NCBI GenBank assembly: GCA_017617635.1
Contig: JAFZVW010000041.1
Span: 1 to 37,621, forward strand
Direction: 5' to 3'
DNA: 37,621 bases
Source: Bacteroidaceae bacterium
GTDB taxonomy: Bacteria > Bacteroidota > Bacteroidia > Bacteroidales > Bacteroidaceae
Part shown: piece by piece, positions 29,472 to 33,519 of the stretch
Layout of the letters: the number at the start of each line of letters is the position of its first letter
Numbering within the stretch: the first letter of the stretch is position 1
Program-made: the position numbers and the translations under genes
Notes under the pieces: generated by a model
What the model saw: the letters and a program-made list of their open reading frames with translations, nothing else
Databases searched by the model: none
What the model was told of the DNA's origin: nothing

Positions 29472-29888
29472 ATGATAAAGAAAATTGCTTTTGTGCTACT
29501 TGTGGCTTTCATGACCACAGGCGCGATGCATGCCAAACCTAAGAAACGCGTAGTGTATATGTTCGGTGTGAGTGCCAGTTTCACTGACTCCATCGCATAT
29601 ATTACAGACGTTCAGCGTATGGATCCGGTATATATCGAATCCAAGACGGGATTTCTGTACGACCGTAGCATATATTCCCAGCAGCTGCAGACTTTCATGG
29701 AAGAGAAAATGGGACGTCCGCACACCACATGCACCATATTCTTCTCAAAGAAAAAAGGCAAGCTGGAAAACAAGTATCTGAAAGTACTTAAATTCCACAA
29801 GAAAAGGAACAGCCTGAACATCCGTCAGATGGAAACAGGTATATTCAAGTTTATACCAGAAGAGTGGACCGAGCATGAAACGATTTAA
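29472..29888 (+). CDS. Small secreted protein of unknown function
   Basis: A 138-residue protein with a signal peptide (about 1-21, ending MHA). The mature part is basic and begins KPKKRVVYMFGVSASFTDSIAYITDVQRMD. It contains SIYSQQLQTFMEEKMGRPHTT and a lysine-rich stretch near 94-112. I recognise no named domain. The gene overlaps the following HPr-kinase-like gene by 14 bp, so the two are probably translated together. A substrate or partner role in the adjoining cassette is possible but is inference only. Confidence 0.75.
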   Translation: MIKKIAFVLLVAFMTTGAMHAKPKKRVVYMFGVSASFTDSIAYITDVQRMDPVYIESKTGFLYDRSIYSQQLQTFMEEKMGRPHTTCTIFFSKKKGKLENKYLKVLKFHKKRNSLNIRQMETGIFKFIPEEWTEHETI

Positions 29889-30747
29889 AGTTGCAGAGCA
29901 TATCATCGCCATTGAAGCAGATGACTGCATTGACGTACTTAATCTGCTTCCAGGCTTCAAGCCATTTGAATGGGACGGTAATGGCGTTGCCGTGCTTACG
30001 GTATATGTTTCCACAACCTGGGAATGGGAACTGCGAGGCAGGGAAATTGGCCAGTTTGACGTTGGCGGCACAAATCACGGGGTATACCTCAACGACGACG
30101 GAGGCTATCAGTTTGAAGTCAGCGACATAAACGGTCACCTATGTGCACGCATGCAGAGCAACAAAGACTTCAGCAAATGCACAGTACGTCTGTACGAAGG
30201 GACATGGAACCAGCAGAACTTCGGTCTGAACAACTGCATGATGATGTCATATGCATTTGCAACATCCGAATCAGACACCATACTTATACATTCCAGCGTA
30301 ATCCGCTGTGACGGGAAAGCCTATCTGATGACAGCTCCCAGCGGAACAGGCAAGAGCACTCATACACGTCTATGGTATGACAATATCCCCGGTTGCGACC
30401 TGATGAACGACGACAATCCTGTAATCCGCATGGTAGACGGTATTCCCGTCGCCTTCGGTTCGCCATGGAGCGGCAAGACACCATGCTATCGCAACGTACA
30501 GGCTCCCATTGGCGGAATAGTGCGAATCCGGCAGAAACCGGAAAACAGCATTCGTAAGCTGAAACCCATTGAAGCGTTTGCAATGCTCCTGCCTGCCTGC
30601 AGCAGCATGAAATGGGACGAACGCGTTTACAACGGAGTATGCGACAGCGTGTCACACTTTGTAGCCACATGCAACATATGGGAACTGGGATGCCTGCCCA
30701 ATGCTGCAGCCGCACATCTGTGCCACGACACAATAGCACTTACATGA
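29875..30747 (+). CDS. HPr-kinase-like ATPase associated with PqqD/peptide-maturation loci
   Basis: A 290-residue protein. The C-terminal half has a Walker A loop APSGTGKST (154-162), an acidic NDDNP motif at 178-182 and GSPWSGKTP at 195-203. These follow the HPr kinase/phosphorylase-like fold found in PqqD-linked ribosomal-peptide loci. The N-terminal half is a separate beta-rich domain, unlike the classical HprK N-domain. It may phosphorylate a peptide, protein or small molecule using ATP. The start overlaps the previous gene by 14 bp and the stop overlaps the next by 4 bp (ATGA), inside a four-gene cassette. True HprK seems unlikely without a PTS context. Confidence 0.8.
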   Translation: MKRFKVAEHIIAIEADDCIDVLNLLPGFKPFEWDGNGVAVLTVYVSTTWEWELRGREIGQFDVGGTNHGVYLNDDGGYQFEVSDINGHLCARMQSNKDFSKCTVRLYEGTWNQQNFGLNNCMMMSYAFATSESDTILIHSSVIRCDGKAYLMTAPSGTGKSTHTRLWYDNIPGCDLMNDDNPVIRMVDGIPVAFGSPWSGKTPCYRNVQAPIGGIVRIRQKPENSIRKLKPIEAFAMLLPACSSMKWDERVYNGVCDSVSHFVATCNIWELGCLPNAAAAHLCHDTIALT

Positions 30748-31289
30748 GGATCCGGACAATCATACGAAGGATTACAGACATGGCATTGAAGGTCGCATTA
30801 TGGCCAATGCACATGAAATACAGGCATGCAAACGGTACGGTAGGCACAGGTCCCAGAAAGGAAATCCCGAATGACATCCTGCTTGGAGCCGTGCGTGATG
30901 CCATACGCGAGGGAAACAGCGCCACCATTCTGGTCAAAGGATGGAGCATGCGTCCTTTCCTGGAACACTTGCGCGACAAGGTCGTACTGGACGCACCCGA
31001 AGCACTCCGTATAGGCGATGCCGTTCTGGCAGAAATCACCCCCGGTCACTTCGTCCTGCACAGAATCATAGAGATAGACGGAGATGAGATAACCCTGATG
31101 GGAGACGGCAATCTTGTCGGTACCGAACACTGCAGGAAGAGTGATGTCTGCGGAGTTGTAAGACAATATATACGCCCCACACGCACCATCAGTGCAGACG
31201 ATCCCGAATTAATCAGGAATATACAACGATGGCGGAAGCTACTGCCATACCGCAAGTATCTGCTGATGATATACCGAGCTATAGTATAA
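30744..31289 (+). CDS. S24/S26-family peptidase with Ser/His dyad
   Basis: A 181-residue protein from the ATG at 30744, chosen because it overlaps the previous stop (ATGA); earlier in-frame starts lie inside the kinase gene. It has the catalytic serine block VKGWSMRPFL (Ser68) and GHFVLHRIIEI near residues 101-111, where His106 takes the place of the usual lysine, followed by LMGDGN. A Ser/His pair is the form found in SipW and eukaryotic signal peptidases. There is no clear N-terminal membrane helix, unlike signal peptidase I. It could cleave a leader peptide. It precedes a PqqD-like gene. Confidence 0.8.
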   Translation: MRIRTIIRRITDMALKVALWPMHMKYRHANGTVGTGPRKEIPNDILLGAVRDAIREGNSATILVKGWSMRPFLEHLRDKVVLDAPEALRIGDAVLAEITPGHFVLHRIIEIDGDEITLMGDGNLVGTEHCRKSDVCGVVRQYIRPTRTISADDPELIRNIQRWRKLLPYRKYLLMIYRAIV

Positions 31290-31302
31290 CAAATTATAAA
31301 AC

Positions 31303-31569
31303 ATGAAGATAAAAGAAGGATTCCAGCTTCGCGAAGTATGCGGCGAATATGTCATTGTTGCATACGGAATGAAGAACATAGACTTTTCCAAGGTCATTAA
31401 CCTGAACGAATCTGCTGCAGATATGTGGAAGGCAGTAGTTGGCAAGGAGTTTACAGTCGAAGATTTGAAGAATGCCCTGATGGCCAGCTATGACGTCAGC
31501 GAGGAACAGGCATTGGCAGACGCCAGGCGCGTTGCCGCTGAGTGGAAGGAAATAGGTCTGGTATCGTAA
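31303..31569 (+). CDS. PqqD-family peptide-binding protein (RiPP recognition element)
   Basis: An 88-residue protein with the PqqD fold: an N-terminal strand pair (GFQLREVCGEYVIVAYG), VINLNESAADMWKAVVGKEFT, and helices ending in ADARRVAAEWKEIGLV. PqqD-like domains bind leader peptides and present them to modifying enzymes. Its companions here, an HPr-kinase-like ATPase and an S24/S26 peptidase, are typical of RiPP-type loci, but the modifying enzyme is absent. It starts 13 bp after the peptidase gene and ends 12 bp before a TRIC-channel gene. Confidence 0.85.
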   Translation: MKIKEGFQLREVCGEYVIVAYGMKNIDFSKVINLNESAADMWKAVVGKEFTVEDLKNALMASYDVSEEQALADARRVAAEWKEIGLVS

Positions 31570-32274: not shown

Positions 32275-33519
32275 ATGAAAGAAACCGGAACCATAATACG
32301 ACTGCTCCTATTGCTACTGTCAATGTCAATTGCAAGGAGTAGCATGTCACAGAATATGGTTTATGACAGCAACATCAGGACTTTCCAAGTAACGAAGGAC
32401 AGTAACCCTCTGCTACCTGCCGTCATAAAGCTGGGCAGTTCGTCATACATGACATTCTCATGGGACGAGATGAGTCACGACTACCACCGCTACATCTACC
32501 GCCTGGAACACTGTACATGGGACTGGCAAGCCTCGGACGACATGTTCGAGAGCGAATGGCTGGGAGGGCTGAACAATCTTCCCGTTGATGACTACCGCAC
32601 CAGTTTCAATACCACGCAAATCTATACACACTACTCAGTATCCATACCTAACGGGAATACTTCCGTCCTGCTAAGCGGTAACTATCGCCTGCTGGTCTTC
32701 GAGGACGGAGAGGAGGACAAGGGACCTGTATTGGAGAGCAGGTTTCAGGTATATGAGGATGTTGTCCCTGTAAATTGCGAGGTAAATTCCAATACTGACA
32801 TTGACTGCAACAATTCACACCAGCAGGTAACACTGGCCATGCGATACGGAAAACTGAACGTTTTGGATCCCAACAGTCAGATTCACACAGTTGTAACCCA
32901 GAACCGCAGGCCAACGCGCACTGTAACAAACATACCGGCAAATATCCGCAGCAATGCCGGTCTGGAGTGGACACATTGCGAAGACCTGATATTCCCCGCA
33001 GGAAACGAGTACTACAAGTTCGAAATCCTGGATGTGCACGTAAGCGGCATGAACGTGGACAACATGCGATGGTACGAGCCGTTCTTCCACGCAACACTCT
33101 GGGAAAATGTCGTAGAACTGAACTATCTGTCTGCCGAGGACCAGGACGGAGCATTCTACCCCCGGACACAAGACCAGACGGACAACAACACACAGTCCGA
33201 ATACGTAATTGTTCATTTTGCGCTGAAAAGCCCCAGACTTGACGGTGATGTCTATGTAAACGGACAATGGAGCAACGGAGAATGCGATCCTGTCTGCCGT
33301 ATGGAATACAACGAGGCAAGCCGCTGCTACGAAGCAGCCATAATGCTGAAACAGGGATTCTACAATTATCAGTTTATACTGGAAGACGGGTCCACCAGAA
33401 AGACCATGGGAGACTTCTGGCAGACCGAGAATGAGTATCAGACATTTATTTACTTCCGGGACCAGGGAGGCCGCTACGACCGCCTTGTAGGCTACACCTG
33501 CGTGAAATCACGCCTATAG
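32275..33519 (+). CDS. Type IX secretion system Plug protein (formerly DUF5103)
   Basis: A 414-residue secreted protein with a signal peptide (about 1-25). The first domain contains VYDSNIRTFQVTKDSNPLLPAVIKLGSS and LEHCTWDWQASD, the markers of the family once called DUF5103. Further domains are predicted through the C-terminus (SPRLDGDVYVNGQWSNGECD and QGFYNYQFILEDGSTRKTMG). Members act as the periplasmic plug of the T9SS translocon SprA in Flavobacterium johnsoniae. It is the second T9SS component in the window after PorZ, so an active T9SS is likely in this organism. It starts 24 bp after the TRIC gene and ends 19 bp before an FdtA-like gene. Confidence 0.85.
   Translation: MKETGTIIRLLLLLLSMSIARSSMSQNMVYDSNIRTFQVTKDSNPLLPAVIKLGSSSYMTFSWDEMSHDYHRYIYRLEHCTWDWQASDDMFESEWLGGLNNLPVDDYRTSFNTTQIYTHYSVSIPNGNTSVLLSGNYRLLVFEDGEEDKGPVLESRFQVYEDVVPVNCEVNSNTDIDCNNSHQQVTLAMRYGKLNVLDPNSQIHTVVTQNRRPTRTVTNIPANIRSNAGLEWTHCEDLIFPAGNEYYKFEILDVHVSGMNVDNMRWYEPFFHATLWENVVELNYLSAEDQDGAFYPRTQDQTDNNTQSEYVIVHFALKSPRLDGDVYVNGQWSNGECDPVCRMEYNEASRCYEAAIMLKQGFYNYQFILEDGSTRKTMGDFWQTENEYQTFIYFRDQGGRYDRLVGYTCVKSRL

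Follow-up and report, generated by a model that had tools for sequence, protein, structure and literature searches.

We describe three adjacent genes of a Bacteroidaceae genome, encoding an HprK-like kinase (gene B), a signal-peptidase-like serine peptidase (gene C) and a PqqD-type leader binder (gene D), which we interpret, with a probability of roughly 0.7, as a Bacteroidales version of the maturation module of the linear polyphosphorylated peptides (LPP) that serves dispersed precursor peptides in trans. The cassette is a variant, from another phylum and with an unusual split layout, of a recently described family, and what is more surprising than the cassette itself is the nature of its probable substrates and their location behind secretion-type genes. 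The relevant features of the window (the whole 37,621-nucleotide stretch of DNA that was analysed) are given below. Conservation refers to 81 loci, the window and 80 relatives retained for comparison from the 290 confirmed relatives of B found by scanning 84,980 species genomes; these loci come from MAGs named Prevotellaceae, Bacteroidaceae or Bacteroidales.

29472-29888, + strand: gene A, 138 amino acids, signal-like N-terminal helix; a neighbour of the cassette
29875-30747, + strand: gene B, 290 amino acids, HprK-like kinase (LppK-like), candidate peptide Ser kinase
30334-30366, + strand: B residues 154-164, APSGTGKSTHT, Walker A, invariant in 81/81 loci
30406-30420, + strand: B residues 178-182, NDDNP, acidic pair, invariant in 81/81 loci
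30744-31289, + strand: gene C, 181 amino acids, S24/S26 peptidase, SipW/archaeal-type signal-peptidase-like (LppS-like), candidate leader peptidase
30945-30947, + strand: C Ser68 (SMRPF), candidate nucleophile, invariant in 81/81 loci
31059-31061, + strand: C His106 (VLHRI), candidate general base of the ER/SipW type, invariant in 81/81 loci
31104-31106, + strand: C Asp121 (GDGN), candidate third catalytic residue, invariant in 81/81 loci
31303-31569, + strand: gene D, 88 amino acids, PqqD-type discrete RRE (LppB-like), candidate leader binder
31405-31407, + strand: D Asn35, hand-aligned to LppB Asn33, the residue that fixes the kink at the leader Pro; invariant in 79/79
31519-31521, + strand: D Asp73, aligned by hand with LppB Asp70, which hydrogen-bonds the leader Tyr; invariant in 79/79
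32275-33519, + strand: type IX secretion system (T9SS) plug protein (NF052315, 416.8 bits, cut-off 100); neighbouring gene that we do not count among the cassette genes

The arrangement of four overlapping or nearly touching genes given in the preliminary description of this DNA is borne out by the coordinates, and a gene-neighbourhood search for co-occurrence of the four families found their linkage conserved. The start of B overlaps the end of A, and C shares ATGA with the end of B if it starts at ATG 30744, which is the best reading, the mechanical ORF beginning earlier, at 30612. Order and strand of A-B-C-D are the same in 78/81 loci, the exceptions being a locus that begins within B (L058), one whose contig stops 266 bases past C (L055) and one with a single 499-residue frame at the expected position of C and no D (L066). 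Gaps of at most 20 bp (overlaps included) separate A and B in 67/80 loci, B and C in 59/81, and C and D in 40/79. B was matched in 57 of 61 genomes of the genus sample (counted from the table) and in 207 of 251 genomes of the family sample.

All three proteins of the cassette retain the residues expected of active enzymes or binders. The Walker A motif reported earlier at B residues 154-162 is confirmed as APSGTGKST, and residues 198-202 are likewise invariant in 81/81 loci. The acidic pair sits where HprK has its catalytic Asp. The predicted structure of B (mean pLDDT 91.2) was assigned by structure search to the PEPCK/HprK fold, which includes HPr kinases, while the profile match to HprK has E 0.048; placement in an unrelated metabolic family is not what the search returned, and the kinase motifs are present in 81/81 loci. 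Membership in HprK-related kinase A (TIGR04352) was rejected, this best curated model scoring 27.1 bits over the P-loop region, far under its cut-off of 200. Peptidase C scores below the cut-offs of both Peptidase_S24 (20.8 bits, cut-off 23.3) and the archaeal-type signal peptidase model TIGR02228 (18.8 bits, cut-off 51.85); its invariant Ser, His and Asp agree with the S24/S26 assignment made earlier, and the motif and the sub-cut-off TIGR02228 match suggest a SipW/archaeal-type-like enzyme. The PqqD-like assignment of D holds above cut-off (PF05402, 53.4 bits, cut-off 23.4), and Tyr63 is invariant in 79/79 together with Asn35 and Asp73. D aligns weakly with LppB (chain 9x8z_B, E 0.048); lasso RREs, such as TfuB1 (6jx3, E 7e-9), match it better and are the closest among solved structures. 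At C48 (L033:7340-9114) the genome of the window has a second PqqD gene, behind which an S24-like protein of 505 residues is encoded that contains a His-rich stretch and, judged by eye, Asn in place of the catalytic His; this pair could be another peptide binder. D is favoured as the reader of YxxP leaders because the second PqqD has Ala at the position of the Tyr-binding Asp73.

The LPP are a RiPP family described in May 2026 (Nat Commun, PMC13381572) from the lppAKBSDN genes of Paenibacillus alginolyticus; the statements on them here follow portions of that paper. The cluster encodes the precursor LppA, the kinase LppK, the RRE LppB, the SipW-like peptidase LppS, the MsbA-like exporter LppD and the NTP-transferase LppN. 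LppK adds several phosphates to core Ser3, cleavage by LppS requires Ser29, His68 and Asp93 plus the RRE, and LppB holds the Tyr and Pro of YxxP with Asp70 and Asn33. A YxxP peptide is phosphorylated and cut by these enzymes. The published clusters are located in capsule loci, the biological role is stated to be unknown, and the authors call the family patchy and restricted to Bacillota; the word stem 'bacteroid' is absent from the main text (PMC13381572).

The window has in common with this family an HprK-like kinase with intact P-loop and acidic pair, a discrete RRE with the Tyr- and Pro-holding residues (D73 and N35), and a SipW-like Ser/His/Asp peptidase, encoded together. Because B, C and D match the LPP core, the kinase is likely the modifying enzyme and the peptidase likely the leader remover, which lends support to the RiPP-like logic of the preliminary description. 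That description also spoke of an undescribed system, which holds only in part: the enzyme set has been described in Bacillota (PMC13381572, May 2026), and no Bacteroidales counterpart came up among the literature listings searched. Paeninodin-type lasso clusters, in the portions of PMC13381572 and PMC7533575 that describe them, also have an HprK-like kinase, a PqqD-type B1 protein and an NTP-transferase as tailoring genes, but they carry a macrolactam cyclase and a B2 cysteine peptidase. Neither a lasso macrolactam cyclase nor a B2 transglutaminase-like peptidase was noticed among the window ORFs, and peptidase C is of the serine signal-peptidase type, unlike B2.

The layout differs from that of LPP. 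Precursor, exporter and NTP-transferase are within the LPP cluster as published, whereas the window cassette has none of them and thus three of the six genes. The intergenic gaps of the window cassette are too small for a precursor gene. The NTP-transferase model matched in 0/81 cassette loci, and the ABC-exporter model had one match among the 81 loci, a protein of L096 encoded about 4 kb beyond the cassette, in keeping with the earlier remark that the cassette lacks a transporter. One PF14907 NTP-transferase gene is located elsewhere in the genome of the window (C43), next to a glycosyltransferase-like gene. More complete clusters exist in other Bacteroidales. In L224, PqqD, a YxxP peptide, HprK, S24, an ABC exporter and an NTP-transferase are all in one place, and HprK, S24, PqqD, NTP-transferase and ABC genes are found together in L216, L217, L218, L220 and L048. 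A small YxxP ORF lies between PqqD and HprK in L223, L224 and L226, and just before HprK in L225 and L048; a precursor gene within the cluster, as in LPP, was recognised in L223, L224, L226 and L048. In three deep-branching Bacteroidales genomes, a large cargo gene positive for the T9SS type A sorting domain (TIGR04183) precedes PqqD, with 8 to 15 bases between the two:

L223, 291-5090: T9SS type A cargo gene directly before PqqD
L224, 197-6100: T9SS type A cargo gene directly before PqqD
L226, 7804-10041: T9SS type A cargo gene directly before PqqD

Dispersed peptides are the likely substrates of the window cassette; they have a YxxP leader, and a Ser follows the leader Tyr at a distance of 19 residues. 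A leader profile (A6) built from 16 leader stretches gave matches in 57 of 61 genus genomes (E ≤ 0.1, with E calculated per genome), up to 17 in a single genome and three in the genome of the window, the last of them weak (E 0.009):

C1, 52223-52306: leader match to profile A6
C18, 15946-16023: leader match to profile A6
C49, 38766-38840: leader match to profile A6

The full peptide ORFs have 34-70 residues (median 58) and typically start with MKK-x-Y-I-x-P-x-x-x-V-V-x-L-x-x-x-x-M-L-A-x-S. We drew 68 peptides from the best-scoring loci, 54 of them outside the seed loci. Among these 54, Tyr is found at position 0 in 52 and Pro at +3 in 53, and Ser at +19 in 46, a frequency that is partly a product of selection, as the search model includes this Ser and the peptides were drawn from top-scoring loci. 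Trp, which is outside the search model, occurs within the last 12 residues in 40/54, compared with a mean of 13.9 and a maximum of 23 in 500 shufflings. All three peptides of the window's own genome have Ser at +19 (counted by eye). The preliminary description had listed a remote peptide as one possible substrate, and it is this option that is supported by YxxP peptides elsewhere in the genome whose presence tracks the kinase. The likeness to LPP, as far as the published account of LppA goes, comprises the YxxP leader, a Ser 18-19 residues past the Tyr (+18 for the modified Ser of LppA, +19 in the Bacteroidales peptides) and variable C termini; the Bacteroidales precursors differ in being dispersed, in having their own leader consensus after YxxP and often a Trp near the C terminus.

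Related peptides were also seen in other settings. At L046:46-3921, a 46-residue Cys-rich peptide of the YxxP type (FxxP) is followed by a radical SAM gene and by two genes each for PqqD and HprK, so that the same kinase family occurs beside a radical SAM enzyme. YxxP-type peptides adjoin HprK-PqqD pairs at L044:8527-8652 and L045:7642-7776, where they directly precede large lipoprotein-like genes (866 and 905 residues).

A same-strand ORF ends at most 300 bp upstream of 52 of the 68 peptides, and 41 of these 52 upstream genes carry a short T9SS-like tail by a cross-validated tail model, which marks no more than 21 of the remaining 891 ORF ends of the 81 loci; a plain motif test (short-CTD motifs B-D-E) gives 36/52 versus 21/891. 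Of the three peptides of the window's own genome, two have a tail-bearing gene upstream and one lies where its contig ends. In the reverse direction, the 81 loci contain 21 tail-bearing genes, of which 4 have a YxxP peptide behind them. The tail consensus is TGI .. IYxLxGRRV .. KGIYIVNGKKV .. K, with a Tyr..Gly..basic motif, GxYI, a terminal basic stretch and often T(G/A)I at 35-62 residues from the end. The tails appear to fit the motifs of the short T9SS C-terminal domains of Prevotella intermedia, in a study that, in its available portions, is not concerned with peptides (PMC11969387). Just 3/52 tails match TIGR04183 at E ≤ 0.01, and the profile-profile link to the T9SS sorting domain is weak (probability 25%). 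A T9SS plug homologue is present in the locus DNA of 74/81 cassette loci.

The peptides are statistically linked not only to the tail-bearing genes but also to the kinase. In the family sample, peptides were found at E ≤ 0.01 in 138 of 207 genomes with B compared with 9 of 44 without B (p = 1.7e-8), and in the good-quality genomes in 80/126 compared with 3/25 (p = 1.7e-6). In the order sample (E ≤ 0.1), the numbers are 22/49 and 9/149 (p = 2.6e-9), or 15/42 and 9/149 (p = 4.3e-6) after removal of the seven seed genomes; the B profile included sequences from two genomes of this sample. Because the genomes are related and the samples phylogenetically structured, these Fisher tests overstate independence and the p values are guides only. 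Counting against our interpretation, 69 of the 207 family genomes with B have no peptide at E ≤ 0.01, and nine family genomes (three of them of good quality) have peptides in the absence of B. It could be argued that other enzymes process the peptides, which would still be genuine and associated with T9SS-type cargo, their co-occurrence with B reflecting shared ancestry only. Peptides and B are both family-wide traits, and the nine genomes with peptides in the absence of B fit such a scenario. However, the association holds order-wide and without the seed genomes, peptide genes lie inside HprK clusters elsewhere in the order, and YxxP is the motif that RREs of this type are known to bind according to the published LPP account (PMC13381572), so that we regard processing by other enzymes as improbable.

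A second scenario, which we consider quite unlikely, is that the trio serves the synthesis or regulation of cell-surface polysaccharides and the YxxP peptides are unrelated small proteins. HprK genes occur with PqqD or S24 in exopolysaccharide-type loci (L047, L222), which recalls the capsule context of LPP in Bacilli as described in PMC13381572, and the NTP-transferase of the window's genome has its glycosyltransferase-like neighbour. Against this scenario, the peptide genes of L223, L224, L225, L226 and L048 are located either between PqqD and HprK or immediately ahead of HprK, and peptide presence tracks B. A YxxP peptide is also what the same enzymes phosphorylate and cleave in the published LPP work (PMC13381572, in the portions cited).

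The 138-residue secreted protein encoded by A had also been put forward as a substrate, in which case D would bind it, B would phosphorylate it and C would cut it. Its close spacing to B and its presence in 80/81 loci speak for such a role, but its distribution and structure make it very unlikely. A occurs in 240/251 family genomes, 44 of the 251 being without a B match, and among the good-quality family genomes in 151/151 compared with 126/151 for B; B is situated elsewhere in 17/86 genomes, and in L214 and L215 A is found near rpoD and degP with B-C-D absent. Instead of a YxxP leader A has a signal-like N-terminal helix, and its predicted fold (pLDDT 88.9) contains an alpha/beta domain from about residue 23. 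Residues G32, D39, S40, R65, Y68, Q71 and F127 are conserved in 80/80 sequences; at E ≤ 1, A has no match in Pfam, NCBIfam or the PDB sequences, and it has no clear fold match. A gene for a clostripain-like (C11) lipoprotein separates A and B in five genomes:

L227, 6545-7777: C11 lipoprotein gene between A and B
L228, 5747-7015: C11 lipoprotein gene between A and B
L229, 2409-3698: C11 lipoprotein gene between A and B
L230, 5930-7165: C11 lipoprotein gene between A and B
L231, 6462-7763: C11 lipoprotein gene between A and B

A C11 gene also adjoins A in L215, which lacks B, and the window's genome has a single C11 gene, elsewhere (C59). The ancestral gene order may have been degP-rpoD-A-C11-B-C-D. 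A is probably an independent secreted protein, older than the cassette and included in the same operon, and a role as substrate is unlikely. The failure to recognise a precursor, exporter or cyclase gene beside the module and the likeness of D to lasso RREs might suggest that a lasso-peptide or LPP cluster has decayed here and that the module has no substrate left. This is highly improbable given that the catalytic residues are invariant in 81 loci across which B identity falls to about 51%, and that the operon has been kept, with B in most genus and family genomes.

These results lead us to favour the interpretation of B-C-D as an LPP-type maturation module acting on dispersed peptides. D would bind the YxxP leader of the small precursor peptides, B would phosphorylate a Ser of the core, with the Ser at +19 from the leader Tyr as the most likely site, C would remove the leader near that Ser, and the mature product would then be exported. 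The stand-alone module would act in trans on peptides scattered over the genome, unlike the published clusters; many of these peptide genes sit immediately behind a gene whose product bears a short T9SS-like tail. What happens to the peptides, from leader binding and phosphorylation to the site of cleavage and export, is extrapolated from the LPP work and the conserved residues, and the biological role is an inference as well.

More tentatively, we speculate that one core kinase-peptidase-RRE module could serve a genome-wide phosphopeptide repertoire in much of the Bacteroidaceae/Prevotella group, each peptide being made with its own T9SS-exported protein, so that peptide phosphorylation would be tied to surface display, with the peptide as anchor, escort, regulator or matching signal. 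Since the peptides are linked to genes with T9SS-type tails, a cell-surface role lends itself to direct testing. Cluster-based RiPP mining misses such peptides because enzymes and substrates are not neighbours. If our interpretation is correct, an enzyme set seemingly orphan in its own locus would gain candidate substrates, very many unannotated peptides of about 58 residues would gain a likely role, and LPP-type peptide phosphorylation would extend from Bacillota to a near-core trait of a large clade of gut and rumen bacteria.
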